Origin: a virus
DNA length: 20,296 bases
Direction: 5' to 3' (one strand)
Virus record (IMG/VR): IMGVR_UViG_3300029787_003282
Location: 4,143-24,438 of that record
Each line of letters starts with the position of its first letter. Within the stretch, counting starts at the first letter, position 1. Shown piece by piece: positions 1,596-15,932 of this stretch. A program made the translations under genes and the position numbers. The notes under the pieces are model-generated. The model was not told the origin of the DNA. It did not search any database and saw only the letters and a program-made list of their open reading frames with translations.

Positions 1596-1601
1596 ACTAT
1601 A

Positions 1602-1952
1602 TTATAGATAATTTGACTTTTTGGTTCCACTATAAATCACATCTTTTATGCCATACTTATGGATGAGCCCCTGACAACAAGGGCATGGCTTCGCTAAGTT
1701 GTTGTTATGCCTGTAGATATAAATAGTGCTACCTTTGAGGTCTATCCCCATTCTTACAGCTTTATAGATGGCATGGCTCTCTGCGTGTAAAGTTGAGTAC
1801 TCTCCTGACCCAAACTTAGGATGTGTCTTCCTTACGTTATGAGCTTTCGCTATAACTCTCTTACCTTTGGCTATGGCAGCACCAATCTGAAACCGATGTT
1901 TTGACTTCTTGGACTCATTGATTGCTGCCCTCATCGGGGCAGGTTCACTCAT
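1602..1952 (-). CDS. Cytidine/dCMP deaminase-fold protein
   Basis: A compact 116-aa zinc-dependent deaminase. In a numbering that starts two residues earlier (a possible GTG start at 1958), the HAE motif is H58-A-E60 and the PCxxC motif is P91-C92-P-C-C95; together they supply the zinc ligands and proton shuttle of the cytidine deaminase superfamily. The likely reaction is hydrolytic deamination of cytidine, dCMP or a related base. T4 dCMP deaminase is considerably longer and has an extra zinc site, so the substrate is uncertain. I chose the ATG at 1952 because it forms an ATGA overlap with the stop of the zinc-ribbon gene upstream. The gene sits just before recA, which fits nucleotide-pool adjustment for phage DNA synthesis, but editing of a free sugar nucleotide or a base cannot be excluded. 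Confidence 0.85.
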   Translation of the reverse strand: MSEPAPMRAAINESKKSKHRFQIGAAIAKGKRVIAKAHNVRKTHPKFGSGEYSTLHAESHAIYKAVRMGIDLKGSTIYIYRHNNNLAKPCPCCQGLIHKYGIKDVIYSGTKKSNYL

Positions 1953-2164
1953 TGCCACTTGTCAGGGTAGTAAGCTCCCTCTCCAGTAATTTTAAATTTA
2001 GGCAAACCTTCAGGGAAGTGAACTTGTTTTAGCGTTCCTTCTCCTACAAAGTCTGGGTTACATTTCTTACAGTACTGGGGGGGATTCTCATCTCTTTCAG
2101 TCATGGACTGGAATACTTCCCAAACGGTTTCACACTTGGTGCATTCCCAATTATAAACGGGCAT
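1949..2164 (-). CDS. Small FmdB-type zinc-ribbon protein
   Basis: A 71-aa protein opening with MPVYNWECTKC and carrying C8-x2-C11 and C32-x2-C35, the four-cysteine zinc ribbon of the FmdB putative regulatory family. These are common in phages and bacteria and their role is poorly defined (possibly transcription-related). The rest (KQVHFPEGLPKFKITGEGAYY) is typical of family members, which often end shortly after a G-x-G-F/A-Y motif. A strong AAAGGAG lies about 8 nt before the ATG, inside the end of the GT2-TPR gene, with which it overlaps by 14 nt; it shares an ATGA with the deaminase downstream. A second FmdB-type protein lies at 19248-19760. Confidence 0.83.
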   Translation of the reverse strand: MPVYNWECTKCETVWEVFQSMTERDENPPQYCKKCNPDFVGEGTLKQVHFPEGLPKFKITGEGAYYPDKWQ

Positions 2165-3329
2165 CTTTCTCTCTCCTTTGTTTTGAGGTTAACCTATGTT
2201 TTTTAGGCACTTTCATCATTCGCTTAAACAAAGCGAAGTTTTCTTCTAATCTTCTTCTATTCGCTGGATCTAAGCGGTCAGTCTTTGGGCTGTTCAAAGC
2301 CTTTCTTATAATCTTATATGCGGTTTCGTACTCAGCATTTTCGTATAAGCATAAACTCAGCACATCAGGTATCTTCCAATTGTATACATCAGTATCTACT
2401 AAACTAAGTTCGCTTGCAGGAAACTTCATACTTGAAGCCTTCTCTAAAAGTATTCTAGCTACTGAGAAATCTCCCTCATGGAAAAACTGTTCAGCCAAAT
2501 AATAAAAAGCTTCTGCGCGATGAGGAATTACTTCTGTTGCTTTGCCAAAACTCTGAATAGCATCTAGTCTCCTACTGCTATAGTGCTGACATAATCCCAT
2601 TGAGAGGTGTGCAAGATAAATCTCCTCGTCCCAGTTTGATAGCTCGATAGCCTTTGCATATGCAGTTATCGCCTCTCCATATGCATGTCTCGATTGCTGA
2701 GTCATTCCTAGGTTGTAATAGTTACGAGAGCTAGGAGTATCCTCCAACGCCTCCTCTAAAACTGCGATATCATTTAGTATACTAGTCTGACCCTCATGCC
2801 TAGCTCCTCCACCAACTGTATAAACTCCAAACGAAGGAATAAACTCTTCGGTTGTAGGGCTTTCACAATAGGGATACTCATGTAGCCCTTCAGCCCACTT
2901 CCAATCTAAATCCCCACGAAATAACTGAGCCCTCTTATAAACCCAGGGAGACAAGTGTGTGTATGCCCTAATTAAATCCTTCTTAAATGTAGGAAAGCGT
3001 CTAAACTTCTTCTTAGTCAAAGGTTCTTTTCCTTTGAATGGAACTATCTCTTCGTCAGCATCTAGAGTTAGCAAGTAGTCGGCTTTCCCCTTGGCTCTAA
3101 CGAAAACTAACTCTCTATTGTGCGCGAAATTAACCCACTCATCTTCATAAAGCTCTCCTGGAATACCTTTATCGTCAAAGTATTGCTGGATGAACTCTTG
3201 GGTTCCATCATCGGACCCTGTGTCGCCAATGACCCAATAATCCAAGGTAGATACTACACTATCTAACGCTTTCTTTAAAACCGCAATTTCATTCTTTACG
3301 ATCATACATAAACAAATTGTCTGTTTCAT
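2151..3329 (-). CDS. GT2 glycosyltransferase fused to TPR repeats
   Basis: A 392-aa protein. Residues 1 to about 190 form a GT-A-fold family 2 glycosyltransferase: start CLCMIVKNE, nucleotide-site GDTGSDDGT (35-43), and the metal-binding DADEE at 90-94 after YLLTL. Residues about 200-345 consist of degenerate tetratricopeptide repeats (YYNLGMTQQSRHAYGEAITAY, then AFYYLAEQFFHEGDFSVA), ending in a basic tail rich in Lys/Arg. GT2-TPR proteins of this layout are known in bacteria and phages; the TPRs usually hold the acceptor protein, which suggests a peptide or virion-protein target. It begins 1 nt after the SDR stop with no good Shine-Dalgarno, so coupled translation is likely. It is the last glycan gene of the island. 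Confidence 0.88.
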   Translation of the reverse strand: MKQTICLCMIVKNEIAVLKKALDSVVSTLDYWVIGDTGSDDGTQEFIQQYFDDKGIPGELYEDEWVNFAHNRELVFVRAKGKADYLLTLDADEEIVPFKGKEPLTKKKFRRFPTFKKDLIRAYTHLSPWVYKRAQLFRGDLDWKWAEGLHEYPYCESPTTEEFIPSFGVYTVGGGARHEGQTSILNDIAVLEEALEDTPSSRNYYNLGMTQQSRHAYGEAITAYAKAIELSNWDEEIYLAHLSMGLCQHYSSRRLDAIQSFGKATEVIPHRAEAFYYLAEQFFHEGDFSVARILLEKASSMKFPASELSLVDTDVYNWKIPDVLSLCLYENAEYETAYKIIRKALNSPKTDRLDPANRRRLEENFALFKRMMKVPKKHRLTSKQRREKDARL

Positions 3330-3330
3330 A

Positions 3331-4521
3331 TTATAAATTCGTGTATTTGTTAAGGGAAGGACCTAAGATCTCAAAAGCTTTTAGCAACTCTGTGATTCCT
3401 CTCTCTAATGTGTAACGAGGTCTCCAGCCCTGATTCTCAAATTTAGCGTTGGATACAATATAATCTCTCTTATCAGGGTCTTCTGCGATATCGTCGTACT
3501 GAATGGAGAAGCCTGGGACCTGTTCTTTGATTTTTTCAGCTAACTCTAGCTTACTCAGATTAGCGGAGGATAGACCAACATTGTATACTCCAGTCATCAT
3601 CTTTTTGGGATGCGTGTAAAAATGAATTCCTCGCATAAACGCCAATGCAACATCTTGAACGTGAATGTAATTTCTTACAAAGTCTTGCTCGAATAAAACA
3701 ATATAACCGTCCTTGTAGGCTTTGTATGTAAAATCATTAACTAGTAAATCTAATCGCTGTCTAGGGGATACCCCGAACACGGTAGCTAATCTAAAAACTA
3801 TCCCTCCATGCTCAAGAACAACCTTCTCCGCATCGCATTTTGTTCTACCGTAATGGCTAATAGGATTAAGAGGCATATCCTCTGTGCATGGAACTCCTTT
3901 TTCACCTATACCATAACCACTATTGGTATTGGGGTATACAATCTTTGCTTTAGGCTTGGCGTTTTCACAGAGGAATTTAACATGCTCATAATTTACTGCT
4001 GTAGCTAACTCCTTATCTCTCTCACACGCAGGGGCTCCTACGATAGCTGCAAGAGGGATAACAATGTCTGCTTGTTCCACATACTTCTTAAGCTTATCCT
4101 GATCACGAACATCCCCATTTACAAACTCAAACTCAGGTCTATAGCAGTACTGAGTTAAAGGTGTTTGCTGGTACATTAAGTTATCGTAAACAATAAGCTT
4201 TTTAAATGATTGTAGGTTAGGGTAAGTATCTTTCCACCACCCTCCACGAGGGTCTTTCATGTTAAAGTCCTTAAGACCCCACATTTTTTTAGACTCCATT
4301 AGCTTTTGAACTAATACTGTCCCAATATAACCTGCTCCCCCTGTAATTAATATTGTAGGGTTTGGGCAAGGTTCCCAATTTTCTTTTTTGAGGTCTTCAT
4401 ACCCTGGCTTATCCTCTACATCAGCGTTGTATGTAGAAGCATCTTTAATTACCGTTTTGGCGTAAGGGTTAGGGTCTGATTCTTTTCCCTTATCGGTAGG
4501 CTCTTGAGTTCCCTCACTCAT
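3331..4521 (-). CDS. NAD-dependent epimerase/dehydratase (extended SDR) with N-terminal extension
   Basis: A 396-aa extended short-chain dehydrogenase acting on nucleotide sugars. The NAD-binding GGAGYIG is at 61-67, D139 follows the VNGD segment, and the catalytic Y224-G-R-T-K228 is in place. The later FVRNYIHVQDVA (281-292) and GVYNVG (311-316) are typical of sugar epimerases and dehydratases. The exact reaction (4-epimerase, reductase or dehydratase) cannot be told. Oddity: a polar, charged N-terminal extension of about 55 residues precedes the Rossmann fold, with no internal ATG that would remove it. The start shares TAATG with the stop of the 137-aa gene upstream. It may act together with the SDR at 4927-5838. 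Confidence 0.88.
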   Translation of the reverse strand: MSEGTQEPTDKGKESDPNPYAKTVIKDASTYNADVEDKPGYEDLKKENWEPCPNPTILITGGAGYIGTVLVQKLMESKKMWGLKDFNMKDPRGGWWKDTYPNLQSFKKLIVYDNLMYQQTPLTQYCYRPEFEFVNGDVRDQDKLKKYVEQADIVIPLAAIVGAPACERDKELATAVNYEHVKFLCENAKPKAKIVYPNTNSGYGIGEKGVPCTEDMPLNPISHYGRTKCDAEKVVLEHGGIVFRLATVFGVSPRQRLDLLVNDFTYKAYKDGYIVLFEQDFVRNYIHVQDVALAFMRGIHFYTHPKKMMTGVYNVGLSSANLSKLELAEKIKEQVPGFSIQYDDIAEDPDKRDYIVSNAKFENQGWRPRYTLERGITELLKAFEILGPSLNKYTNL

Positions 4522-4934
4522 TACCAGCTAATCTCCCAGTCCTTAAAGTCTGCTGCAAGGCAGTCGGTTTTATAATCTTTTCTCCCTCCGAACTTCTCTT
4601 CAATCTTGTTCTTAGCCGTATTTCTAATTCCGTTTAGCCCATGAGTGAGTTCTAAGTCGTTACCATCTTTAATACCTTTTCGGTAGTTTGATTCATTGTG
4701 CCAGATATGCAAGTTCATCTGTGATAGAACTACAAGGGCTCTGATAAACTTAGCATCAATTTTCTTGGGAGAAGGATTACTTAACAATTGATCGAGATCA
4801 TGCATGATCTGGTTTATCTCAATCTTGTATTCATCTTTATTATCAGGAATAAAGACTTCCTTTAGCTGCACGATAGAGAGCCTATCAATAAGCTCTGAAA
4901 AGGTCGGTAAGTATTTTCTATATAAATTATCCAT
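4521..4934 (-). CDS. Unknown 137-aa protein, possibly DUF4254-like
   Basis: I do not recognise this firmly. It is a soluble, mostly helical protein with an opening LPTFSELIDRLSIVQLKEV (9-27), a helix of acidic/hydrophobic residues (33-52), and a QMNLHIWHNESNYRKG segment (72-87). The N-x-x-I-W-x-x-E-x-x-x-R pattern resembles the DUF4254 family, which is often found in glycan-biosynthesis clusters of bacteria, but this is a resemblance only. A C-terminal part rich in Lys and Trp follows. It overlaps the SDR upstream by 8 nt and shares TAATG with the next SDR. The context between two sugar SDRs implies a role in the glycan pathway. Confidence 0.7.
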   Translation of the reverse strand: MDNLYRKYLPTFSELIDRLSIVQLKEVFIPDNKDEYKIEINQIMHDLDQLLSNPSPKKIDAKFIRALVVLSQMNLHIWHNESNYRKGIKDGNDLELTHGLNGIRNTAKNKIEEKFGGRKDYKTDCLAADFKDWEISW

Positions 4935-5838
4935 GTTGTTGATTTTCCCAGTCCAGTAACTCCTTTAATCCCTTCTCTAGCGGAGTATAGTTAAACTTTA
5001 GGATATAAGTTTTAAGTTTTCCGATGTCGAGGCATTTAGACTTAACACCTACGAACTTGTTAGTATTATAGACTATGGTTTTAGAATCATAGGATAATAT
5101 GTCCGAAATTGTATTGGCGTAGTGCTGGATGCTATACTCTTCACCTCTGCCTATATTGATAACTTCATTTGCCTTTATAAAGAGAACCCCCATCAGTAAT
5201 TCTACAAAATCGTCAACGTGGATAAGCTCGCGCTCCTGAAGACCGTCTCCCCATAGCTCTACTTCACTCCCATCTCTTGAACTCTTATATATTTTCCTCA
5301 CTAAATCAAAAATGAAATGGTTATCGTCTTCGTCATACCCTGGACCATACAAAGTAGAAGGGACTAAATACAACCACTCTAGTCCGTGCTGCTTCTCTAA
5401 GGCCCTCAATCCCGTCAGGAGCATCCTTTTTGTTTGGGCATAATAGTAGAGGTTTTCTTCAGGCTTTCCCTTCTCATAGAAATCCTCACGCAGAGGGAGG
5501 TTAGGGTCATAACTACAGCTAGTCCCCATTGCAACCATCTTAGCCTTCGGATGCCTCTCTGCCCAGAACCTAAGGATATTCGTGTTAATCTGCTGATTGG
5601 TAATCCATTGAGTTCCTGAGTTATGCACACACCAGTCACCTGCTTTCGTATTAGCAGCTAAATGAAAGATTACGTCGAAAGGCTTCTGTACGTCATTATC
5701 AAAAACTATTAAGTTTTTATAGTCTGACAAGTTCGCAGTTTTTGTATTACACACATAAACTTCCCAACCGTCATACTCTAATCTCTTCACAAGGCTTCTG
5801 CCCATGAAGCCTGTGCCTCCTGTAACTAATGCTCTCAT
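4927..5838 (-). CDS. NAD-dependent epimerase/reductase, GDP-fucose-synthase-like SDR
   Basis: A 303-aa extended SDR. The start VTGGTGFMG (5-13) binds NAD(P); MGTSCSY at 104-110 gives the catalytic Ser/Thr; Y133-A-Q-T-K137 is the YxxxK pair; STLYGPG (161-167) and RELIHVDD (203-210) are sugar-nucleotide-site motifs. The S-C-S-Y...P-L-x-E-D-x-x-x-x-G-x-P-E run is close to GDP-L-fucose synthases, which carry out epimerisation and reduction of GDP-4-keto-6-deoxymannose, but the substrate here is not proved. It starts with an ATGA overlap with the C-methyltransferase stop. A 6-deoxy-4-keto sugar would suit both this enzyme and that methyltransferase. Confidence 0.86.
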   Translation of the reverse strand: MRALVTGGTGFMGRSLVKRLEYDGWEVYVCNTKTANLSDYKNLIVFDNDVQKPFDVIFHLAANTKAGDWCVHNSGTQWITNQQINTNILRFWAERHPKAKMVAMGTSCSYDPNLPLREDFYEKGKPEENLYYYAQTKRMLLTGLRALEKQHGLEWLYLVPSTLYGPGYDEDDNHFIFDLVRKIYKSSRDGSEVELWGDGLQERELIHVDDFVELLMGVLFIKANEVINIGRGEEYSIQHYANTISDILSYDSKTIVYNTNKFVGVKSKCLDIGKLKTYILKFNYTPLEKGLKELLDWENQQHG

Positions 5839-7040
5839 GCTTCTAAGACTTTAATTTCGGGAAAAGGAACGATAAACTTAACACCGTTTCCTTTATTCTT
5901 CTCTAGAATCTCTTTCTGGAAGTTGTGTGATAGTAACAGATAGTAATCAGGTAAATCGTCAGGTGATTCTTTTACAATAGGAATATTTGACATGGGCAGC
6001 ATGTTGCCAATTTTAAGCTCGTTAATTTCTACAGCCTTGTCTATAACCTTATTATCAATCCCCTCGTAGTTTAAGAGAGTATTACCCTTTGCTGGTGCGC
6101 CATACGCATAGATAGTTTTGCCTTGTTTCTTTAAACTGTTAAGGTATGCATAAAGAACATCTTTCTGATCCCTAATTTTGTCAGCAAAACGAAGGAAGTC
6201 TGTTAAAGTAAATTGTCCATCCATCTCCTCGGTGTCATAGTATCTTCCAGTAGGCAGATAGCTATCTCCATGACAAACTTTAACAATTAACGAACCGCTA
6301 TGAATAGGTGAATGGTATGCGTCAAAGATGTTTAATCCATAAGGTTTTAACAGCTTGCCTAGGCTATCCAATGTGTAGTAACAGAGATGCTCATGGTAGA
6401 TCATGTCGAAGCTCTGGTTTTTAACCAGTTCCCCTGCATACATGCATTGCACAGTAAATACACCATCCTTCGCCAATAGATACTTAATACCTTCAATTAC
6501 ACTATGAAGCTCTTCTAGGTGAAAGAATACTCCAGCAGCATTAATTAGTTTTGCACTTTTCTCTTTGAACGCCCCTTTAACTAGATCCTTGTTGAAGAAT
6601 CCGTTTATAGTTACAATACCTGCTTCGCTAGAACGTCTGGCAATCTTATCAGCAGACTCTACATTGATAACATTCTCAAGACCCTGCTTCTTGTATTGAA
6701 GTAATTGAGTCCCATCATTCCCCCCAATGTCTACGATAAGGTCTGATGATACTAAATTAAACTGCTCGATGTTCTCTTTTGCAAGATCGTAGAAGTGCTT
6801 CTTTAGCGTATCTGTCATACCTGAAAGATAACCGTGATCTTTAAACATTACCTCTTTGGGGACGGTATAATTTAACTGCAACAGATCGCAATGTCTACAA
6901 GATACGAGATGAAGAGGGTAAGTCTTTACACTATCACAAGTCTCAGGTGTCACAAGATCGTTGCACCAAGGCTGATCTCCTAGATCTAAAACTGAAATTA
7001 AATGGCTTGATCCACAGGATCTGCACTTTTTGGTTTCCAT
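5835..7040 (-). CDS. Sugar C-methyltransferase (TylCIII/NovU type)
   Basis: A 401-aa SAM-dependent methyltransferase of the three-domain nucleotide-sugar C-methyltransferase family. An N-terminal zinc domain has C6, C9, C48 and C51. The SAM motif is DIGGNDG at 104-110, FFHLEEL (172-178) carries a His, the catalytic Y215-H-E-H218 is intact, and the C-terminal domain has GAPAKGNTLLN (314-324). Family members methylate a carbon of dTDP-4-keto sugars to make branched deoxysugars. Start: the ATG at 7040 lies 43 nt inside the preceding glycosyltransferase, and an AAGGA 6 nt upstream supports it. All key motifs are present, so it is probably active. The donor sugar nucleotide is unknown. Confidence 0.9.
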   Translation of the reverse strand: METKKCRSCGSSHLISVLDLGDQPWCNDLVTPETCDSVKTYPLHLVSCRHCDLLQLNYTVPKEVMFKDHGYLSGMTDTLKKHFYDLAKENIEQFNLVSSDLIVDIGGNDGTQLLQYKKQGLENVINVESADKIARRSSEAGIVTINGFFNKDLVKGAFKEKSAKLINAAGVFFHLEELHSVIEGIKYLLAKDGVFTVQCMYAGELVKNQSFDMIYHEHLCYYTLDSLGKLLKPYGLNIFDAYHSPIHSGSLIVKVCHGDSYLPTGRYYDTEEMDGQFTLTDFLRFADKIRDQKDVLYAYLNSLKKQGKTIYAYGAPAKGNTLLNYEGIDNKVIDKAVEINELKIGNMLPMSNIPIVKESPDDLPDYYLLLSHNFQKEILEKNKGNGVKFIVPFPEIKVLEA

Positions 7041-7966
7041 GATTTTCCTTGTTTTATGAGGTCGAACATTTTATCAGTAGTGTAGTCCAACGCTTTATTA
7101 TAGGCGCTTTCGACCATTCCTTCATAGTCTTTCCAGTTCTTTAAGATCTCATCAATCTTGTCCTCTAGATCCTCTATCGAATCAAAGTAAACAAAATCTT
7201 CATCAGGCGTGTAGTAGTCTTCTGATATGCCCCAAGGATCCCTGTACACTAAATTTAAAGTCCTAGACATGGCTGCTTCGTGCATTCTAGACTTAAACTG
7301 AGGCAAGATGCGGTTATCCAAATGAGAGAAGGCTTTGCAGGTCTCCCAGCCATCATAATTTTTAATAGTTTGTACATGCGGAGGGTCTAACGGAACTACG
7401 TTGTAACAAACAGATATCTTACATTTACTTACTTGAACAATCTTATCACGATGTGATAGATTTTTATGAGTGGCCCAGGGTAGATAATGCTTTGTTCTTT
7501 CATTTATTCCTTGAGTCATTGTCATATAGCAATAACAAAAATTTCTCATAACCCGCAGCATCTTCTCATGCTCTTCTGAGTGAATGCCACCAAAATAGCA
7601 AACATCCGTATCTTTTTTCGCTACAGGAGGAATATCTCTCTTATTAAAGGGATAAAAAATGTACTTGTATTTAGGAGAATCCTGCCTATTCAACCACTCC
7701 ACGGTGTAGGGGCATATATTGTAAACTTCTAAAGCATTTGCTGCGTGTTGTATTGGTGTAAAGCCGTGATGGTCTTTTGGTTGTGCAAATTCAGTAGGAG
7801 ACCATTGATTGATAAGCACTTGGCGATTACCTTCTCTAAGATTTATGATTGAGTCGTAACCATAATACAAGTTATCTTTTGAATCTTCGGAATGGTACTC
7901 CTCTAAACCAAATGAAAATGCGTTAGTTTCGGGGACTTCGGCTGATAAGTTTTTGCATATAAACAT
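6998..7966 (-). CDS. Glycosyltransferase-like protein, GT-B/CgeB-like
   Basis: A 322-aa soluble protein. The C-terminal half (about 215-300) has a GT-B signature: FKSRMHEAAMSRTLNLVY, then a Y-T-P-D-E-D-F-V-Y-F run and a helical IEDLEDKIDEILKN. This matches the glycosyl-transferase-1-like domain of CgeB-type proteins, which hold the nucleotide sugar with an acidic residue and a following loop. The N-terminal half has YFGGIHSEE (124-132) and many Tyr and His residues. The donor and acceptor are unknown. It shares TAATG with the methyltransferase upstream and runs 43 nt into the next gene. No signal peptide or membrane helix is visible, so it acts in the cytoplasm. Confidence 0.68.
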   Translation of the reverse strand: MFICKNLSAEVPETNAFSFGLEEYHSEDSKDNLYYGYDSIINLREGNRQVLINQWSPTEFAQPKDHHGFTPIQHAANALEVYNICPYTVEWLNRQDSPKYKYIFYPFNKRDIPPVAKKDTDVCYFGGIHSEEHEKMLRVMRNFCYCYMTMTQGINERTKHYLPWATHKNLSHRDKIVQVSKCKISVCYNVVPLDPPHVQTIKNYDGWETCKAFSHLDNRILPQFKSRMHEAAMSRTLNLVYRDPWGISEDYYTPDEDFVYFDSIEDLEDKIDEILKNWKDYEGMVESAYNKALDYTTDKMFDLIKQGKSWKPKSADPVDQAI

Positions 7967-8682
7967 TAAACTCTTTTAGCAAAAATTTCCCAAGTATCAG
8001 AAGCTCTTCCTAGGGTAAAAGGTGGGGTTAGAACCTCAAAACCAAAACGAGTCACATATTGTTCCCAGTAAGCTTTGGTTTGGACGTTACAATGAACGTG
8101 ATGCTGATCTCCTCCGTACTCCCATGCTGCTGCGGTAAAAACTAAATACGCTCCAGGCTTCGTGTGGTTCTGGATATTTTCCATCATCGCATCACAGGAC
8201 TCGACAGGGATATGTTCGAAATGCTCCAAAGAGATTACTACATCAAAGAAAACCTTATCACCTTCTTTATCAGTAAAATCTAAAGGTTTATCTGTCCTCG
8301 CCCAAAAGTGATTCTCATCTATATGAGGACTTTTATCTTTTACAACCTCATTAGCATCTACAGTTACTGTGGTAATCCCTAGTTGTCGAAACATCTCAGA
8401 AAGCATCCCACTTCCTGAGCCGAACTCTAGAATCGTTTTCGGTGCGTACAAATGGGCAATATTTTTGGAGATATGGGAAAAGCAACCTTTAAAAAAATCA
8501 ATCGTTTGCTTAAAGTCCATCGCAGGCCGATCAGTAAGAACTTTAGTCTCGCCATCCCACCACAGAGCATCGTGATGTTGATACCCTAGCGCAGTCTGAT
8601 TGTTTTCGTCTACACCAAAATCAGTGCTATCTTTTTGAAAAAAGCCAGTAACATTATTCTTATTATTTTGTAAAATTTTCAT
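7966..8682 (-). CDS. Class I SAM-dependent methyltransferase
   Basis: A 238-aa methyltransferase. Motif I is EFGSGSG at 86-92, an acidic residue follows in VTVDANE (106-112), and DVVISLEHFEHIP (147-159) is motif IV, as in ubiquinone/UbiG-like and sugar-associated methyltransferases. LVFTAAAWEYGGDQHHVH (180-197) closes the sheet and provides His residues near the active site. The substrate (sugar O-methyl, a small molecule or protein) is unknown. The ATG at 8682 is preferred over an in-frame GTG at 8697 because it sits 1 nt after the upstream TGA (TGATATG), fitting coupled translation. It is followed by a TAATG overlap with the CgeB-like gene. Confidence 0.86.
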   Translation of the reverse strand: MKILQNNKNNVTGFFQKDSTDFGVDENNQTALGYQHHDALWWDGETKVLTDRPAMDFKQTIDFFKGCFSHISKNIAHLYAPKTILEFGSGSGMLSEMFRQLGITTVTVDANEVVKDKSPHIDENHFWARTDKPLDFTDKEGDKVFFDVVISLEHFEHIPVESCDAMMENIQNHTKPGAYLVFTAAAWEYGGDQHHVHCNVQTKAYWEQYVTRFGFEVLTPPFTLGRASDTWEIFAKRV

Positions 8683-8683
8683 A

Positions 8684-9415
8684 TCAAGTCCACTCACGCT
8701 GTGATGCGTCTATACCATACTCCTTAAAAATAGGGAGAAGTTCTTCTTTGTACTCCGAGCACCATTTACCTTTTACCAATGCTGATGCAGTATAGGGGAG
8801 CACACTACTATCATAGTGGTGCTCTCCACGTTTAGGCTCGTTATCATAGTGATAAAATCCTTGAATTCCTAAGTTGTAGCAAGTCTCATGTGCAGCGACC
8901 TCGAATTGCTGGGACATATCTTCTCCCCCAATGTGTAGGTCTGGTCCTTGTGCGTGAATTGCTTTTAAATGATTTGTTCTCCAGAGCGTTGCAGTCTGAG
9001 AATAAAAGTAAGGAACGCGGACATCTAAATAACGGAGAGTTTCACCCACTTTAATATTAAAAGGGTCAATCCCTTTTTGTAATCTAATAAATGAAAGATC
9101 CTCATTCTCCTCCATTACATTAATATACTCTTGAAGCCTCTCTCTGTCAGGTGAATCATATAGAAGATAGTCCTCGTTCATGTACAGACAATACTTATGA
9201 TTAACTTGTATGAGCCCCGTAAGGAATTGTGTTCTAAAGTTATGAGTTGCGTCATACAAAACAGAAGTAACTCCTTTAGTGTCGAATGGTGGGTGTTGGT
9301 CTGTGAAAAAATACAAAGGCTCTTTCATGTATTTTTGGATTTGACCTATGTACGCTTCCCACAGAATACTGTTCTTGGAATGCGTGTTAGTGATAATGGC
9401 TAACTCGTTAATCAT
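8684..9415 (-). CDS. Putative glycosyltransferase (GT-A-like), family unclear
   Basis: A 243-aa protein beginning MINELAIITNTHSKN, a short beta-helix start like that of GT-A enzymes. YCLYMNEDYLLYD at 75-87 resembles a metal-binding acidic motif at the end of a strand, and GGEDMSQQFE at 163-172 resembles the E-D of GT2 enzymes. It also has many aromatic and His residues. These features suggest a glycosyltransferase but I cannot place it in a named family. I chose the ATG at 9415 rather than a TTG at 9427 because it forms an ATGA overlap with the DegT stop. The gene ends 2 nt before the methyltransferase start. Confidence 0.65.
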   Translation of the reverse strand: MINELAIITNTHSKNSILWEAYIGQIQKYMKEPLYFFTDQHPPFDTKGVTSVLYDATHNFRTQFLTGLIQVNHKYCLYMNEDYLLYDSPDRERLQEYINVMEENEDLSFIRLQKGIDPFNIKVGETLRYLDVRVPYFYSQTATLWRTNHLKAIHAQGPDLHIGGEDMSQQFEVAAHETCYNLGIQGFYHYDNEPKRGEHHYDSSVLPYTASALVKGKWCSEYKEELLPIFKEYGIDASQREWT

Positions 9416-10038
9416 AATACTTTGCAATCCTTAAATACTGTGTTAGTGGTTAGGTCTCGGTATCCGTTATTCTCACCGAGATCCTCCACATGCTCTGGGT
9501 AGTTCTGCATGAGAGCTAACCCATGAGAAGCCTGTTGCGGTGTCATGTACATATTCCACCCTAACATATCAATGTTATCTTCATGATAGTTCTTCTCACT
9601 TCTTCCCTCGTAGCGAGCCTTCCTAAACCACTCAGCAGCAAACTTGTTATCTGTAAGGATCATGCCTCCTTTACCTAGAGGAAGTAGCTTCTTTATGTGG
9701 AAAGATAGGCACATCATTGACCCTGGGATATACATATCGGAGGTAAACCTTTTAGCCGCATCAAAAATAGGATAAGGCTCAAGCTTATACACGCCTGACC
9801 AATCTCTGTCCTCAAAGACTACCTCCGCTCCAGAGTGGATGATAGACATTGGTACGGACAAGTAAGTGTGCTTTGGGATAGTGACTTGAGTTACATTCAA
9901 ATACTTGCAGCACAAGAATAATGCATTTGTGCAACTGTCCACAGAAATAGCGTAAGGGGCTCCTGTGTACTCAGCTACTTCCTCCTCAAACATCTTTACG
10001 ATTTTGTACGGATTATGTTTTTGGCTTTTAAAGGTCAT
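9412..10038 (-). CDS. Short DegT/DnrJ/EryC1/StrS aminotransferase-like protein
   Basis: A PLP-dependent sugar aminotransferase fold of only 208 aa, against about 370 in ordinary members. The core is readable: S33-V-D-S-C-T-N-A-L (substrate/PLP region), FDAAKRF with D93 (PLP pyridine aspartate), and LSFHIKKLLPLGKGGMILTD at 111-130 in which K117 should form the Schiff base (family S-F-H-x-x-K-x-L). The second half has only part of the C-terminal domain (to about 200). It may still dimerise, or may have lost catalysis and act as a fold partner. The ends are clean ATGA overlaps with the MBL gene upstream and the glycosyltransferase-like gene downstream, so truncation by frameshift is unlikely; short phage versions of this family may be natural. 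Confidence 0.8.
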   Translation of the reverse strand: MTFKSQKHNPYKIVKMFEEEVAEYTGAPYAISVDSCTNALFLCCKYLNVTQVTIPKHTYLSVPMSIIHSGAEVVFEDRDWSGVYKLEPYPIFDAAKRFTSDMYIPGSMMCLSFHIKKLLPLGKGGMILTDNKFAAEWFRKARYEGRSEKNYHEDNIDMLGWNMYMTPQQASHGLALMQNYPEHVEDLGENNGYRDLTTNTVFKDCKVL

Positions 10039-11105
10039 GTTATTTTATTTTGAAGTTGGTAAGCATATTTGGAGATAATGTAGTGCGCTTCTCTAATATT
10101 AAGGGTAGGATTACTAATTATAGTCCCCATCCCTCCAATCCCTAAGGATTCCAGCGTTAATTGTCCACTAAATATTCTCCTCCATACTACTTCATCAGCA
10201 CAATAATATACTTCATTCTTTTCGGGTTCACTGCTGGGCAGACCAATAAAAAATCTTACTTGCAGGTCTCCTGACACTTTAGAAGCTACCACACTCTCCT
10301 GCTCCTTGACCAAAGCAGATAAGTAACCTACCCCCTCAGAGGGTCGGATCTGTGTAATTGATTCTTCGTGTTCCAATAGTTCTTGAAGAATCTCATACGG
10401 ACTTATCGAAGATCCCAAAATTTTAGATTGGTTAGCGTAGCAAAAAAGGCTGTCTGCTCCAACGGTCCTGAAATTATTTTTAACAGATGTTATCTGTGTT
10501 GCAAGCCTGTTTCTAATAATAGATAATTTATCTTCTTCTGGGATCTCTGGGTAATGCGAGGGGAAGCAGTCAGCTATTCCTATTTGTGAGTAATAGCTAC
10601 TGTTTTTATCTTTACACAGACTCTTTATTGTTTTTAAGTGTTCTTTTTCTTGTGGATGCCAATTATCGTTAGCGTGAATAACCACCGAATCTCCTACTTC
10701 AATAGTAACAATAGCATCATGATTAGTGTAGTCCGAATTAATGAACGCTCTATAGTAGGCTTCTCCCACTTGAGATCCACTCATACCTACCTCAACCACA
10801 TTATTAAAACTTTTAGAAGCCCTACTCCTAAGACCAGGGTTTATATGCTGAGGGATTACTACTGTAGATTTAGATAAGTACCTCTTACAAAAATAATCAT
10901 CAAAGTGATCATCATGACCATGGCTAATAACCACCACCAAATCTTCAGGATTTATATTTATGATTTTTTGGATATCAGCATACGCAGGGGACGGGCTTTG
11001 ATGCCAGCCTCCAAAAGCGGGAGATATAGGCCAAGGGTCGGTTAGGATATACTTCCCGTTAGATTCAATTAAAAGGCAAGCATGGTTAACAGGATGTATT
11101 TTCAT
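10035..11105 (-). CDS. MBL-fold hydrolase, possibly CMAH-like
   Basis: A 356-aa metallo-beta-lactamase-fold protein. The metal motif S61-H-G-H-D-D-H67 is intact, and further ligands may be H129/D130 and the HANDNWH at 144-150. The start NHACLLIESNGKYILTDPWPISPAFGGW (7-34) resembles the opening of CMP-N-acetylneuraminate hydroxylase-type and UlaG-like proteins (ILTDPW, then G-x-x-W). A second domain of about 180 residues follows, of unknown fold. The role could be hydrolysis or hydroxylation of a sugar or sugar nucleotide. It lies between the GNAT and DegT genes, with ATGA overlaps on both sides. No signal peptide is visible. Confidence is good for the fold and low for the substrate. Confidence 0.78.
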   Translation of the reverse strand: MKIHPVNHACLLIESNGKYILTDPWPISPAFGGWHQSPSPAYADIQKIININPEDLVVVISHGHDDHFDDYFCKRYLSKSTVVIPQHINPGLRSRASKSFNNVVEVGMSGSQVGEAYYRAFINSDYTNHDAIVTIEVGDSVVIHANDNWHPQEKEHLKTIKSLCKDKNSSYYSQIGIADCFPSHYPEIPEEDKLSIIRNRLATQITSVKNNFRTVGADSLFCYANQSKILGSSISPYEILQELLEHEESITQIRPSEGVGYLSALVKEQESVVASKVSGDLQVRFFIGLPSSEPEKNEVYYCADEVVWRRIFSGQLTLESLGIGGMGTIISNPTLNIREAHYIISKYAYQLQNKIT

Positions 11106-11470
11106 AATATTGTATACTTAATACCGCATTTATCAAACGCTTTTTGGCTACCTATATTGTCTTTAAGGATTCGACCTGTTGCCTCTGGATATAATTTCTT
11201 TATCTTTGATAGCATGAACGATCCTACTCCCATACCTTGAAGGTCTGGGTCGGTGCAGAACCTAATATCCCCATCAACTACACCGATATAACCTGCGGGG
11301 CTACCATATAATAGACATACATAGTAGTTTAATGAGTGTTTTTCCATATAAGCCCTTTGATCTTCTGGGGTTATGGTCGCACTTACCAAAAAACCACTTT
11401 GCGTTTCAGGGTGGGTTCTTAGTACTCTTACAAATTCGTAGTACTCAGGGGTTATCTGAACTAGATCCAT
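11102..11470 (-). CDS. GNAT-family N-acetyltransferase
   Basis: A 122-aa acetyltransferase. Motif A is Q78-G-M-G-V-G83 (acetyl-CoA pyrophosphate loop) after a FCTDPDL strand, and motif B is NIGSQKAFDKCGI at 105-117. The short length is near the minimum for this fold. The probable reaction is transfer of acetyl from acetyl-CoA to an amino group, perhaps on an amino-sugar made by the neighbouring aminotransferase-like protein. AGGA lies 6-7 nt before the ATG, which is inside the end of the GT-D gene (10-nt overlap). Context favours a sugar-nucleotide acetyltransferase but a protein target is possible. Confidence 0.87.
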   Translation of the reverse strand: MDLVQITPEYYEFVRVLRTHPETQSGFLVSATITPEDQRAYMEKHSLNYYVCLLYGSPAGYIGVVDGDIRFCTDPDLQGMGVGSFMLSKIKKLYPEATGRILKDNIGSQKAFDKCGIKYTIL

Positions 11471-12291
11471 GAGTCTTCCTGTGTTCCGTACTTATTGTGC
11501 ATCTTTAATATCCAATGCTGTAAGTAGGCTCGGCTGTGCTTCCACCCCTCCAGACCCATCCAAGGACTTAGGCAGGTTCCTACATCTAAATAAGTGTTAT
11601 TACTATGTTCTTTGAAGCACTCATGTATGATATAGTTGCTAAGGGTAGAGGCAGAGAACAGGAAGATTGTATTTTCAATATTGTTTGATTTGATCCAGTT
11701 CTTAATCTCTTCAACCAAGTGATAATCATTTATGATACAGTTAGTTCCTACTGGGAAGTGCTTAATAATTTTAAGCGGTAGCTCATCAAATTTAGCAGCT
11801 TCGTTTGCAACAAAAACAATTTCTTTTTCACAGATTACAGGCAGCATCTCCTGCATGAATCGTGGATAATTATTATTGATAAACAGGTTGGAGTATGTGA
11901 GGTGTTCGTCATCCCCCTCACCGCAAAGATCTAACTGCATTTGAAATGCGTCTTTACCTGCTATGTCTTCATCAGCCACTCCTGTCAGACCTTTAAAGTA
12001 GTTATGCTGCCTGTATTGGAGGGCCTCAATTAACTTCTCCTGAAAGAAAGAATCCTTCTCAGGGTCAAAGCTTTTATGCTCCTCCTTTGTATACACTCCC
12101 GCTCCTGAGCGTTGTCCTGTGATATAGTGGTCATCAGCTAGGACTATCTTTTCACCTTTTAGCATGTAAACTTCTCCATCAGAGAATCGACTAAAAGCAA
12201 AGTTCTCTCCATCCTTCAGCTTCTGAAAGATTCGATCAAACTCTCCACTAAAGGTCTTGGCAGACGTATTCTGTGATTTTTCTTGCGGCAT
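11461..12291 (-). CDS. GT-D-fold glycosyltransferase (DUF1792-like)
   Basis: A 276-aa protein with an early FSRFSDGE (33-40), the D-G-E metal/nucleotide motif typical of GT-D glycosyltransferases (DUF1792-like). FVANEAAKF (160-168), FLFSASTLSNYIIHE (210-224) and YLDVGTCLSPWMGLEGW (234-250) follow, as in that fold. In the founding bacterial enzymes the fold adds glucose to a serine-rich repeat protein, so a virion-protein target is attractive; this is inference. I set the start at the ATG at 12291 because a GGAG lies 6 nt upstream; an ATG at 12297 is directly against that site and a TTG at 12303 is poorer. It overlaps wecB by 44 nt. Confidence 0.72.
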   Translation of the reverse strand: MPQEKSQNTSAKTFSGEFDRIFQKLKDGENFAFSRFSDGEVYMLKGEKIVLADDHYITGQRSGAGVYTKEEHKSFDPEKDSFFQEKLIEALQYRQHNYFKGLTGVADEDIAGKDAFQMQLDLCGEGDDEHLTYSNLFINNNYPRFMQEMLPVICEKEIVFVANEAAKFDELPLKIIKHFPVGTNCIINDYHLVEEIKNWIKSNNIENTIFLFSASTLSNYIIHECFKEHSNNTYLDVGTCLSPWMGLEGWKHSRAYLQHWILKMHNKYGTQEDSWI

Positions 12292-13231
12292 TTCCATCTC
12301 CAAATGGGCATTCCTGAATTACTAACCTCTTGTGGTTTAGTTTAAAATTGTCTTTCAACGTAAAAGGACTCCTACACATAACTGCCGACTGTGATGGTCT
12401 CTCAGTTACCGTCCTGCACACTAGGCATAGCTTTTTAAACCAGCTACACTCCTCTTGAATACCTCCACTATCAGTAATAACCAATTTACAGTCAGCAATT
12501 CTTTGAAGCATCTCAGAGTGAGGTAGCGGATCAATTACCTGAACCTTCTTAAATGTCTCTTCTGCAACGTACTTAACTTTAGGATTAGGGTGTGCAGGGA
12601 AAACGAAGCTGTACTGTTCGTAGGTGTTTGCAAGATCTTCTATCTCTTTAAACCAATCCCCTAATTTATCAAGATTCTCTCTTCGGTGCATAGTTATCAG
12701 AATCTCGTTACTCTCTCCTGGTTCTATGCCTACTAGATTATCAATGGCTGTATTTCCCGTTACAACAATAGTATCCTTCTCGTACCCCTCTACAATCAAG
12801 TGAATCTTATCCTGTTTGGTAGGACAAAAATGAACAGAGGCTAACGAGGATATAACTCGCCTATTAGTCTCCTCTGGGTAAGGATTACTTTTATCATAAG
12901 TCCTTAGTCCAGCCTCTATGTGATAGACTGGGATTGCTCTGTGGAAAGCTCCTAGAGCGACAGCCATAGCACTAGAAGTATCGCCCTGAACAAAGACCTT
13001 AGTTATACCCTTATACAGGTGGTTAGCGTGAGCAAGCACAGAGCCCACTATCGAGTCTAGACGATTCTCTCTATTGAAAATCTGAATCCTATCGTCGTAG
13101 TCATCATTCAGCAAGCTAGTATGTTGCCCAATTTGAACAAGCTTAAATTTAACGCTCTCCTTCTTAAACTCTTTAATAAGAGGAAGAAGCTTAATGTACT
13201 CAGGTCTAGTTCCGTATGTTAATAAAATCAT
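12248..13231 (-). CDS. wecB: UDP-N-acetylglucosamine 2-epimerase
   Basis: A 327-aa enzyme converting UDP-GlcNAc to UDP-ManNAc (or hydrolysing it), a cytosolic GT-B-fold protein. Signature pieces in order: GTRPE (7-11), QGDTSSAMA (82-90), HIEAGLRT (104-111), PEETNRR (119-125), GNTAIDN (159-165), MHRREN (181-186), AHPNP (213-217), DSGGIQEE (254-261), and TERPSQ (276-281) where many relatives have TERPE. The length is below the usual 370-380 but the C-terminal GDGNAARKI is present, so it is probably complete. It forms an ATGA overlap with the GT2 upstream. UDP-ManNAc feeds N-acetylmannosamine-containing glycans and nonulosonic-acid pathways. Confidence 0.95.
   Translation of the reverse strand: MILLTYGTRPEYIKLLPLIKEFKKESVKFKLVQIGQHTSLLNDDYDDRIQIFNRENRLDSIVGSVLAHANHLYKGITKVFVQGDTSSAMAVALGAFHRAIPVYHIEAGLRTYDKSNPYPEETNRRVISSLASVHFCPTKQDKIHLIVEGYEKDTIVVTGNTAIDNLVGIEPGESNEILITMHRRENLDKLGDWFKEIEDLANTYEQYSFVFPAHPNPKVKYVAEETFKKVQVIDPLPHSEMLQRIADCKLVITDSGGIQEECSWFKKLCLVCRTVTERPSQSAVMCRSPFTLKDNFKLNHKRLVIQECPFGDGNAARKITEYVCQDL
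12298..12301 (-). promoter_or_regulatory. Ribosome binding site deciding the GT-D start
   Basis: GGAG on the minus strand, embedded in the 3' end of the wecB coding sequence. It touches the ATG at 12297 with no spacer, but stands 6 nt before the in-frame ATG at 12291, so it selects the latter and permits re-initiation within the overlap. Confidence 0.6.
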
Positions 13232-13971
13232 TTTACACCTAGAACAGTTTCCCAGCCGTTAGTTATGCCATGCGTGATGCATTGAGACCTTTGCGTGTAA
13301 AAGTCGCTGATTGGCATCAAAGCTCCGTTGGATGAAGCTTTTTTATCATTTCCATATTGTACTGCTTTCATTGAACTATGTAGGTCAGGATCCGAAACAG
13401 GGTGAGGAGGGCAGTAGCATTGTACGCCCCCATGCTTCTTTGCTAAATAACCAAGCTGGATGTCCTCGCCATTCTCAAACGAAAACGGAGTCTCTCTCCA
13501 CATATAATTTAAATCCTCTCTACGCATAAACCATGCATGTCCAACCAAATCAACAGCCTCAGTTTTCTCATTGAGAACAGGCCAGCCCATTCTTTCATGC
13601 TCTATGTAATGTCTACTCTTTAAGATACAACCAGCACCGCCCAAAATACCAGGAGTCTCCTTCATCGTGTTCAGACAGTTTTCAAACCACTTTTTGCCAG
13701 GAATAGTATCATCATCGAAAAAAGCCACATACTTAGTTTGAGCCATTAGCCCTATTGCAAATCTCGCGTGATATTTGCAGTTTGTGTCTGATCTAAAAAC
13801 TTTATTAAAACCTAAATTATAAGCTTTGAACTTCCTGTTCTCAGGAGACCAGTTAATCCACAGCCACACGTTCTCTGGAGCAATACTCTGGTTTCTTATT
13901 GCTTCTAATTGCTCTTCCAGGTATTCAGGCCTTTTGTAGCAATTTAAGATTACCGTTATTGATTCAGACAC
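13228..13971 (-). CDS. GT2 glycosyltransferase
   Basis: A 247-aa GT-A-fold family 2 transferase. ITVILNCYKRPEYLEEQL (5-22) is the usual first strand and helix. F85-D-D-D88 with T-I-P-G-K-K-W is the metal-binding motif, and FENGEDIQLGYLAKKHG (165-181) contains the catalytic-base-type E-D. The donor is a nucleotide sugar; the acceptor is unknown. The start is uncertain: a TTG at 13989 is possible, but a GTG at 13971 is preceded by GAGGT at 7 nt and gives the standard family beginning, so I used that. It overlaps the GT4-like gene upstream by 16 nt and ends in ATGA with wecB. Confidence 0.87.
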   Translation of the reverse strand: MSESITVILNCYKRPEYLEEQLEAIRNQSIAPENVWLWINWSPENRKFKAYNLGFNKVFRSDTNCKYHARFAIGLMAQTKYVAFFDDDTIPGKKWFENCLNTMKETPGILGGAGCILKSRHYIEHERMGWPVLNEKTEAVDLVGHAWFMRREDLNYMWRETPFSFENGEDIQLGYLAKKHGGVQCYCPPHPVSDPDLHSSMKAVQYGNDKKASSNGALMPISDFYTQRSQCITHGITNGWETVLGVK

Positions 13972-14732
13972 TCTTCCCACCTCTCCCAAATTTCATCCTC
14001 AGTGAGGATAGGCTGATTATTACTCTCTCCTCGGAAGGGTATGCCAGCAAGCTTACACTCAGCCTCTACGAGCCCGTAAGTCTCTCGGAGGGATGAGTGG
14101 TAGACAGCCTCGATCTTGCCGTACAGAGCCTCACGGTCGGTCTCATGACCTTGTAGGACAGCCTCTCCCCGATCAACGTACTGAGACACTTCTTGATCAA
14201 AATACTTCATATCTGTAATGTCACCATAAAGGAACACTTTGTCATATCCATCATCCAGAGCGGCTTGAATGGAAAGATGAGGTCTCTTATGTGGGTCAAT
14301 GCTACCGATAACTCCAGCACAGTTATTTTCTGGACTCTTCCAAGTAACTTTAGGAACAATTGGAGGGATGACCACTGAAGGATGATCTACACCGTGCCAG
14401 TCTTTCTGAGAGTTGCTCACATACTGGATCTGATCATATACGTCTAAATCAAACTGAGCCAAAGGGAACAGATTAGTTTCATGGCAACTTAAAATGTGTT
14501 TCTTCCAAGTCTTATCTTTTGGCACATTTAAGAAGTGTGAAATCAAGACCTCTTCTGGCCCAATTAGTAACTTATCCAAAGTAGCCGATTTACACTTATC
14601 TAAGTGATATTTGTGGGGTCCGTAAAAGGTACACTCGACACCTCTATCATTTAGTAAATTTGTTAGAGATATGTGGTGATGGGTCGAGCCGCCAGGGTTG
14701 GACCAACCACTCAAGATTTTAACACTAGTCAT
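13956..14732 (-). CDS. Short GT-B (family 4-like) glycosyltransferase
   Basis: A 258-aa protein, shorter than the usual 350-400. The N-terminal GGSTHHHISLTNLL (14-27) fits the start of GT4 enzymes. The C-terminal half shows VIGSIDPHKRPHLSIQAA (141-158) and the E-x7-E motif: RETYGLVEAE with E217 and E225, which holds the donor nucleotide sugar. The final part of the second domain is curtailed, ending just after EDEIWERWEECL. AAGGAG lies 8 nt before the ATG at 14732, inside the end of the preceding glycosyltransferase, with an 8-nt overlap. It is probably active, though donor and acceptor are unknown. Confidence 0.83.
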   Translation of the reverse strand: MTSVKILSGWSNPGGSTHHHISLTNLLNDRGVECTFYGPHKYHLDKCKSATLDKLLIGPEEVLISHFLNVPKDKTWKKHILSCHETNLFPLAQFDLDVYDQIQYVSNSQKDWHGVDHPSVVIPPIVPKVTWKSPENNCAGVIGSIDPHKRPHLSIQAALDDGYDKVFLYGDITDMKYFDQEVSQYVDRGEAVLQGHETDREALYGKIEAVYHSSLRETYGLVEAECKLAGIPFRGESNNQPILTEDEIWERWEECLNQ

Positions 14733-15870
14733 GGATTAGCTCCTTGTACAGCTTGAGACGGTCTCCCACATTCTTATTAAGATCAAAGTTTACGTCTGTA
14801 ATCTCTTTCAAATTATTACCCATTCTTTCCCTTAGCTTTTTATCCTTAGCAACCCTGCTCAAGACTTTAACCCACTCGGACACCCCTGCATCAGGTTCAA
14901 TAAGGAAACCAGTTTCTCCGTTTACAATCCACTCGTCATAGCATCCAACATTAGATGCGATAAGAGGAACGGCATACCTACCGCACTCTGCTATTTTGAT
15001 CTCAGACTTTGAATCATTAAATGCATTCATTTCTAGAGGAGCGATAGCAGCATCCATGTTGGTAAAGAACTGACCATACCTGTCAGCGGGTAATGCGTAA
15101 TTAATTGTGAAATTAGGAGGACCTTTGAAGCCGCGCATGATAATGCTTTTGTAGTTTTTCCAAACATCAATCTGCCAGTCATCCTCTGGAGTATTAGGAG
15201 GAGGGGCTCCGTAGAAATCCCACCTAATATTCTCTCTACCTGCTCTTTGATTAACCATGTGAGGAACGCCAGCAAAGTATTTTACGTCCTGCTCATGATG
15301 AATTCCTCCAGCCCAACCGAAGCGACAGTAGTTCTTCTTTGCTCTGGTAGGTTGCATGTTCCATGCAGGTAATTCGTAATCTACTGCGTTTTTAATCACA
15401 GCTAATGTGTGAGTGCAGTAGGGTTTGATTCTTTCAGCAAACTTTCTTTGAGTTACTGTTACGAGGTCAGAGTGACTATAGATAAACTTTGTAATATCTG
15501 AAAGCCCCTTATCTTTGTACACACCATATAGTCTGTGGCCTTCGTAGAGATCAGTTAAAAGATCGTCTGTATCAAAGTGTACAAACTTACCAAACTCCTT
15601 TGCTTTTCCAACCATTCGAGCCGTATAGTTTCCTCCAAAGTTACTGAGGTTGCCAGTAACCATGATGTCACACCACTTAAGGTTCTCAAATTCGAAATCA
15701 GGTCTCCACCTGCCAGTAGCCTCATCAAGACCTAAAGGATTCTTATCCCATTTAATCTCGACCTCATCGGGGTATAGTTCTTCAAGCTTCCTGTATGGAG
15801 CTATGATTCGGTAGTACGCACAACCACCTTCATTTGCAGGACACGCTAGTATTTTTAATTTATCAGTCAT
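14725..15870 (-). CDS. GT-B family glycosyltransferase (GT4/group 1)
   Basis: A 381-aa glycosyltransferase. The N-terminal ILACPANEGGCAYYRIIAP (7-25) is the acceptor-side loop seen in group 1 enzymes, and HFDTDDL at 98-104 is a recurring motif of phage and bacterial relatives. The C-terminal domain has FGWAGGIHHEQD (184-195), SKSEIKIAECG (287-297), and VPLIASNVG with GETGFLI (301-324), the donor-binding core. I set the start at the ATG at 15870; an in-frame ATG at 15891 falls inside the terminator hairpin. No clear Shine-Dalgarno is seen in the short leader, which is unusual for the first gene of the island. Confidence 0.88.
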   Translation of the reverse strand: MTDKLKILACPANEGGCAYYRIIAPYRKLEELYPDEVEIKWDKNPLGLDEATGRWRPDFEFENLKWCDIMVTGNLSNFGGNYTARMVGKAKEFGKFVHFDTDDLLTDLYEGHRLYGVYKDKGLSDITKFIYSHSDLVTVTQRKFAERIKPYCTHTLAVIKNAVDYELPAWNMQPTRAKKNYCRFGWAGGIHHEQDVKYFAGVPHMVNQRAGRENIRWDFYGAPPPNTPEDDWQIDVWKNYKSIIMRGFKGPPNFTINYALPADRYGQFFTNMDAAIAPLEMNAFNDSKSEIKIAECGRYAVPLIASNVGCYDEWIVNGETGFLIEPDAGVSEWVKVLSRVAKDKKLRERMGNNLKEITDVNFDLNKNVGDRLKLYKELIHD

Positions 15871-15874
15871 GGTA

Positions 15875-15912
15875 TAAAAATAGAGAGACACCTATTATGA
15901 TGTCTCTCTATT
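15875..15912 (-). terminator. Intrinsic (rho-independent) terminator
   Basis: A 12-bp perfect inverted repeat (AATAGAGAGACA at 15879-15890 paired with TGTCTCTCTATT at 15901-15912) with a 10-nt loop. On the minus strand the second arm ends in a T run (TTTTTATA) at its downstream side, so it should stop transcription arriving from the lipoprotein gene. It stands between the replication block and the glycan island. The stem is AT/GA-rich rather than GC-rich, so termination may be partial. TATAAT on the minus strand (15911-15916) overlaps the upstream base of the stem, hinting at a possible promoter as well. Confidence 0.8.
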
Positions 15913-15932
15913 ATAGCTAATGCTTTCTTTAC

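Follow-up and report, generated by a model that had tools for sequence, protein, structure and literature searches.

Results

A glycan operon between gp32 and UvsX

The sequence analysed here, called the window throughout, is a stretch of 20,296 nucleotides from the virus record IMGVR_UViG_3300029787_003282 of IMG/VR (G000:C1:4143-24438, in a record of 24,438 bases). An original prediction, made from these letters alone, had placed in it an island of fifteen close-packed glycan genes between gp32, UvsY and helicase genes on one side and RecA on the other. The close packing, the position and the flanking genes held; the count is 16 open reading frames (ORFs), at 2151-15870 (Table 1). All genes of the window lie on the minus strand, and in order of transcription they encode an IscA-like protein, a ferredoxin, a zinc-ribbon protein, a DnaB-type helicase, a small ORF, a UvsY-like protein, gp32, a small lipoprotein, the 16 glycan genes, a second zinc-ribbon protein, a deaminase-like protein and UvsX/RecA. 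Neighbouring genes overlap or lie no more than 6 nt apart; among the 16 glycan genes the spacing is -56 to +1 nt, so that they look like one operon. Because of this packing, and because every related locus carries a sugar operon at the same place, their clustering is not due to chance.

Comparison with Pfam and the PDB recovered the predicted glycosyltransferases (GTs), WecB, two short-chain dehydrogenases/reductases (SDRs), two methyltransferases, a DegT-type aminotransferase homologue, a GNAT acetyltransferase and a metallo-beta-lactamase (MBL)-fold protein, but the matches of the second gene (GT4b) and of the GT-D-like gene are weak and two ORFs have no family. The predicted end point of the island, 15870, is likely the true ATG of its first gene, GT4a, since the GTG called mechanically at 15891 falls inside a conserved hairpin.

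Table 1. Genes and control elements of the glycan island and its flanks (window coordinates).
Feature	Position	Strand	Support
UvsX/RecA recombinase, conserved right flank	609..1595	-	Relatives 60-98% identical
Promoter-like element of UvsX: CCAAAAAGTCAA then CTATAATA, 4 nt before ATG	1596..1624	-	Conserved in relatives compared
Deaminase-like gene, usual right-hand boundary gene	1602..1958	-	HAE and PCPCC motifs in translation; locus comparison
GT2 + tetratricopeptide repeat (TPR) protein	2151..3329	-	GmaR 1.8e-9 in PDB; SunS family 1e-4, below cut-off; PHROG 13126
SDR 1, NDP-sugar epimerase/dehydratase family	3331..4521	-	PF01370 5.7e-24
Small conserved protein	4521..4934	-	No family; only in closest sister islands
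SDR 2, NDP-sugar epimerase/reductase	4927..5838	-	Nearest GDP-L-fucose synthase, below its cut-off
Sugar 3-C-methyltransferase (TylC3/TcaB9/KijD1 type)	5835..7040	-	PF08421 + PF08484; D-mycarose 3-C-methyltransferase 4e-63
GT-B-like glycosyltransferase	6998..7966	-	PF13524 1.2e-5
S-adenosylmethionine (SAM) methyltransferase	7966..8697	-	PF13489 6e-17
Uncharacterised protein, GT-A-like by eye only	8684..9427	-	No Pfam, PHROG, NCBIfam or PDB match
Compact DegT-type pyridoxal phosphate (PLP) aminotransferase homologue, 208 aa	9412..10038	-	PF01041 3.7e-25
MBL-fold protein (356 aa)	10035..11105	-	PF13483 1.5e-8
GNAT acetyltransferase	11102..11470	-	PF00583 1.3e-5
GT-D-like putative glycosyltransferase	11461..12303	-	PF22882 E 0.013 alone, weak
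WecB, non-hydrolysing UDP-GlcNAc 2-epimerase	12248..13231	-	PF02350 2.7e-67; PDB alignment
GT2b, GT-A family 2 glycosyltransferase	13228..13989	-	PF00535 4e-9; 5/19 islands
GT4b, second GT-B-like glycosyltransferase	13956..14732	-	Weak PF00534; 15/19 islands
GT4a, GT-B retaining glycosyltransferase, first island gene in all relatives	14725..15870	-	PF00534 5e-8
Control element ahead of GT4a: CTATAATA box, then hairpin and T run	15879..15916	-	Hairpin fold z = -4.6
Small putative lipoprotein between gp32 and GT4a, position conserved	15933..16307	-	Locus comparison
gp32 single-strand DNA-binding protein, conserved left flank	16311..17051	-	PF08804 8e-17

A hypervariable locus with a fixed first gene

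The window was compared with 145 related phage loci; once loci had been merged by contig, 19 distinct complete gp32-to-UvsX intervals were extracted. These intervals measure 4.7-16.8 kb and are almost fully coding, nearly all on one strand. GT4a comes first in every one of the 19, and stands downstream of gp32 in all 40 loci with 2.5 kb of sequence there; GT4b is found in 15 of the 19. When the island proteins were clustered at 40% identity, 124 of the 162 clusters were singletons. Sharing of island content was uncorrelated with UvsX identity (rho = 0.08, p = 0.28, over 171 pairs that are not independent): the window island is nearly whole (0.89 of clusters) in a relative whose UvsX is just 84% identical, and a relative with a 98% identical UvsX has 0.21 of clusters in common with it. 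Compared with its closest counterpart, the window island has a gene-sized insertion, the MBL gene, between the GNAT and DegT genes, and lacks a 298-aa gene.

The locus is hypervariable, with exchangeable contents and GT4a as its core. The island had been taken for an accessory one, which describes its contents, a movable block at this place, but not GT4a, which is core, or GT4b, which is usual. The predicted lack of a nucleotidylyltransferase is true of the window; some sister islands, however, have CTP_transf_3 or NTP_transf_3 genes, and therefore islands of this class do not always live on host sugars. Sister islands further carry FkbM methyltransferases, fucosyltransferase-like GT10 enzymes, cytidylyltransferases, UDP-sugar dehydrogenases, radical SAM proteins and formyltransferases.

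Clean replacement of the cassette between near-identical phages

Replacement of the island was observed in two cases, both resting on metagenomic assemblies. G004 and G009 share 99.5% identity along 40.7 kb, made up of a 34,178 bp stretch at 99.56% and a 6,528 bp stretch at 99.40%, which include capsid, sheath and replication genes. Only the island core interrupts the alignment: it measures about 6.2 kb in one record and 5.75 kb in the other, and the two cores are unlike at the DNA level. The unlike segment runs from the 3' end of GT4a to about 1.6 kb before UvsX. The first form of this core is present in L035, L036, L038, L039, L058 and L059, and the other in L037. In an independent case, the sequences of L003 and L004 agree at 99.8% for 12.3 kb, as far as the start codon of an SDR-like gene, past which they are unrelated, bar one 0.67 kb piece at 74%. 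Only L003/L004 and L036-type/L037 were true near-identical replacements; the same-species groups L012-L014, L031-L033, L034/L054 and L051/L052 show none.

These comparisons show block exchange of the cassette: the flanks on both sides are conserved, and the breakpoints fall at gene boundaries or close to them. The likely mechanism is homologous recombination within the flanks. Comparison with related phage genomes, proposed with the original prediction as a check for a movable block, thus gave a positive answer from both the locus comparison and the near-identical pairs.

Predicted sugars

The enzyme families of the island point to unusual sugars, in keeping with the predicted branched, amino- or acetyl-sugar product: they include a C3-branched deoxysugar enzyme, a ManNAc-type epimerase, and amino and acetyl enzymes. 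WecB scores 238 bits with NCBIfam TIGR00236, above the equivalog cut-off of 210, and keeps the active-site motifs GDT, HIEAGLRTY, PEE and HRREN. As the product of 5835-7040 is a TylC3/TcaB9-type enzyme, a C-methyl-branched deoxysugar is likely. Neither of the two SDRs is a clear 4,6-dehydratase, so that step may be borne by the host.

The DegT homologue keeps the DAA and SFxxxK motifs and lacks the C-terminal domain. That it is a broken pseudogene was rejected, the short form being conserved in phage and cellular genomes. Members of this compact family (195-220 aa; L166-L191) retain the PLP lysine and the DAA motif without the C-terminal domain and are putative enzymes; they occur in these phages and in metagenome-assembled or single-cell genomes labelled Bacteroidetes, Neomarinimicrobiota, Alphaproteobacteria, SAR11 and Prochlorococcus, and a gene of about 320 aa often follows them. 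The MBL gene has the form of a gene-sized cassette with a 4-nt overlap at each side, and its product had no relative in the loci compared or in a scan of viral contigs.

Control elements

A CTNTNAT box is invariant before every GT4a examined. A hairpin with a T run follows the box in nearly all; re-paired stems were scored by script in 24 of 26 loci, in 22 different stem sequences. The element is predicted to combine a promoter-like box with a terminator or leader hairpin, and the hairpin may end the gp32 transcript, protect the island transcript, or both.

At the other end, UvsX has a TATAAT-like box that ends about 6 nt before the ATG and no Shine-Dalgarno sequence, and a conserved CAAAAAGTCAA box lies upstream, further from the ATG than CTATAATA. 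The UvsX mRNA is possibly leaderless, and CAAAAAGTCAA possibly a lineage-specific activator site. DNA similarity to several relatives ends at this promoter-like element (1596-1624). The late-promoter motif TATAAATA was not found on the window's coding strand, and its counts were similar on both strands of G001, the largest relative (106 kb).

Flanking genes and phage lineage

The UvsY-like protein and DnaB-type helicase are also encoded upstream of the island, beyond gp32. The putative lipoprotein is kept between gp32 and GT4a in most relatives; in others it is longer, at 175-208 aa. The helicase block is immediately preceded by ferredoxin and IscA-like iron-sulfur genes (19753-20294), of which the ferredoxin was not found in the other loci. 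In L014, the relative whose island is most similar, a MazG-like gene (L014:8303-8650) separates the zinc-ribbon and deaminase-like genes, and another insert, about 1 kb long, lies between the deaminase and UvsX.

Close relatives of UvsX (65 loci) and of the helicase (80 loci) came from metagenomic viral contigs alone; against phage records, the best identity among the matches listed was about 33%. G001 encodes a T4-type terminase, portal, prohead protease, capsid gp23 and tail sheath, about 29-44% identical to those of Pelagibacter phage HTVC008M, and carries the gene of a family A DNA polymerase some 7 kb ahead of the helicase. This polymerase (PF00476) was present in all 11 large island-bearing records tested (G001:C1:66904-67905 and ten others), and a family B polymerase was detectable in none of them. 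The lineage pairs its family A polymerase with adjoining T4-type gp46, gp41, gp32 and UvsY. From these sequence comparisons, we assign the window to an uncultured lineage of T4-like myoviruses with a family A DNA polymerase.

Export and DNA-modification genes

The window was correctly predicted to lack Wzx, Wzy and a lipid-carrier transferase, and this extends to its relatives: Wzx (PF01943), Wzy (PF04932) and the polyprenyl-phosphate sugar transferase Bac_transf (PF02397) were each found in 0 of 30 related records, with positive controls matched (in 9 genomes for PF02397). None of the 289 ORFs of the 19 islands has more than two predicted membrane helices, by a method that detected a 6-helix protein elsewhere in G001; no polytopic membrane protein of the kind used in Gtr-type serotype conversion (GtrA, membrane GtrB, polytopic Gtr) is therefore present among them. 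Flippase or polymerase genes just outside the window would have pointed to an O-antigen operon, but the 4.1 kb there contain AAA/Clp-like and 2-oxoglutarate-oxygenase-like ORFs, read from their translations, and nothing resembling O-antigen export. These gene contents do not support export of a lipid-linked glycan.

Genes for glycosylation of DNA were likewise not found in records that are themselves incomplete: the thymidylate-synthase-type hydroxymethylase (PF00303) was found in 0 of 54, the C5-methylase (PF00145) in 0 of 22, although the replication region with the family A polymerase was covered, and the TAGT-family DNA GT (PF20691) in 0 of 30. No window protein matched a known DNA-GT family. 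In the search for Tet_JBP (PF12851), the positive control itself gave no match.

Discussion

A candidate virion protein as acceptor

The preferred reading, which we hold with no more than even confidence, is a swappable cytoplasmic glycan operon anchored by GT4a, with a phage-made virion protein as its most likely acceptor. Activated sugars, some drawn from the host and some made by the island's own enzymes, would be joined into an oligosaccharide in the host cytoplasm. GT4a, conserved and first, would recognise a constant acceptor and add the first sugar or sugars, as a priming or acceptor-specific GT. The exchangeable middle would make special sugars (in the window, ManNAc-type, amino/acetyl and C3-methyl-branched deoxysugars, judging from families) and extend the chain. 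The acceptor would most likely be a phage-made protein destined for the virion, and a cassette swap would change the sugar coat of the phage in the manner of a serotype switch.

The original prediction had proposed a cytoplasmic acceptor, either a virion protein or DNA. The absence of O-antigen export machinery agrees with the first part, but DNA is disfavoured, which leaves two candidates, a protein made by the phage and the lipid A-core of the host. We infer a protein from the TPR-containing GT and from the strain-level replacement, the latter suggesting an exposed, recognised structure. The last gene of the window island encodes a soluble GT with a TPR domain, as in protein O-glycosylation of the GmaR/FlmG type; its closest PDB match is GmaR, and it weakly resembles SunS, both of which are known to glycosylate proteins or peptides in the cytoplasm. 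FlmG binds flagellin through its TPR part for O-glycosylation in the cytoplasm (PMC7591256), and glycosylation of phage virions has a precedent in mycobacteriophages (Freeman 2023, as cited in PMC12619734). The GmaR, FlmG and SunS systems likewise combine a GT plus TPR protein with a soluble acceptor and sugar genes nearby; the likeness is nevertheless limited to one terminal GT, which falls below the SunS cut-off, and the acceptor here is putative.

Several points weigh against a virion-protein acceptor. The operon adjoins replication genes, not virion genes, the GT2 + TPR gene is present in a minority of islands, and the acceptor is itself a candidate; moreover, the related records are metagenomic and incomplete. 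The AlphaFold model of GT4a (pLDDT 88.6) has PglA, GlgM, TreT and BshA as nearest solved folds, of which PglA, the nearest, acts on a lipid-linked acceptor, and GlgM and BshA are soluble; as this common GT4 fold is near to lipid-linked and soluble enzymes alike, it does not decide the acceptor. Assembly of lipid A-core relies on soluble GTs at the inner membrane face and needs neither Wzx nor Wzy. Because of this, the lack of Wzx and Wzy alone does not force a soluble acceptor, and soluble GTs could modify the lipid A-core without any membrane gene.

Alternative acceptors

The strongest rival, which we nonetheless consider rather unlikely, is that the operon remodels host lipooligosaccharide or a host lipid-linked glycan on the inner membrane face, blocking superinfection or the sticking of progeny to debris. 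The PglA-like fold of GT4a, the assembly of lipid A-core just described and the similarity of gene types to O-antigen loci speak for such envelope modification, which is also the published reading for pelagimyophage glycosyltransferases (PMC7029224). However, membrane GTs, flippases, polymerases and Gtr-type membrane proteins are all missing from the 19 islands, and superinfection exclusion gives no obvious need for constant replacement of the sugar structure.

It is improbable that GT4a and the genes behind it glycosylate modified phage bases against restriction, with the cassette tracking host anti-glycan nucleases. The location among replication genes in a T4-like lineage would suit this idea, hypervariability would suit type IV restriction, and virus GTs that place diverse glycans on DNA have been described (Pyle 2024, as cited in PMC12619734 and PMC13216743). 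That hydroxymethylase, C5-methylase and DNA-GT families were not found in these incomplete records counts against it, and a chain made by about six GTs would be too bulky for dense base modification. The T4 system (alpha-GT, beta-GT and gp42) resembles the island in having glycosyltransferases near replication genes, and differs in that neither a hydroxymethylase nor a DNA-GT family was found here. A free or nucleotide-linked sugar metabolite for signalling, counter-defence or scavenging, to which the orphan MBL-fold enzyme, the deaminase and GNAT nearby and the small-molecule GT4 enzymes BshA and MshA might point, is very improbable, as several GTs per island and strain-level swapping better suit an exposed polymer.

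Comparison with known variable loci

In close relatives, the conserved flanks of the locus enclose non-homologous content, as in the hypervariable islands of marine T4-like phages. The host-recognition cluster of pelagimyophages and cyanomyophages is likewise a variable island of T4-like marine phages, rich in glycosyltransferases and sugar genes and flanked by conserved core genes. It lies between VrlC and gp14, in a structural region with tail fibres, diverges gradually and is read as modifying the host O-chain (PMC7029224), whereas the island studied here lies between gp32 and UvsX, has no recognisable tail fibre, always starts with GT4a and is replaced whole. The metaviromic islands of marine phages also differ between otherwise near-identical genomes; the genes listed for them are mainly tail fibre, lectin-like and terminase genes, and no glycosyl term occurs in the text describing them (PMC3909814). 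With wzx/wzy-type O-antigen and capsule loci the island shares exchangeable sugar cassettes, fixed flanking genes and enzyme families, but it lacks their initiating lipid-carrier transferase, flippase and polymerase. A GT4a homologue (24% identity) sits in a small GT cluster of phage phi92 (Justusliebigvirus; gp163-gp166), near a DNA polymerase; the cluster is unlike the island in being just four GTs in a row without annotated sugar-synthesis genes beside them; a literature search on phi92 glycosylation yielded nothing useful.

Implications

Marine phages were already known to carry hypervariable glycan islands; new here are the location, the fixed head enzyme and the clean cassette replacement. 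We tentatively propose a phage serotype locus, in which an acceptor-specific GT, fixed across the lineage, heads an exchangeable operon, and strains switch their virion glycan in single recombination events, much as pneumococci switch capsules. The swapping suggests evasion of recognition by repeated alteration of a sugar coat, most likely one on the phage particles themselves. Since the whole cassette is replaced between phages that are 99.5% identical, something that recognises phage sugars probably selects strongly in nature. GT4a, as the fixed head enzyme, is a single defined protein from which a search for the acceptor can start, and if that acceptor is a virion protein, sugar coats would be a major, overlooked axis of environmental phage diversity.

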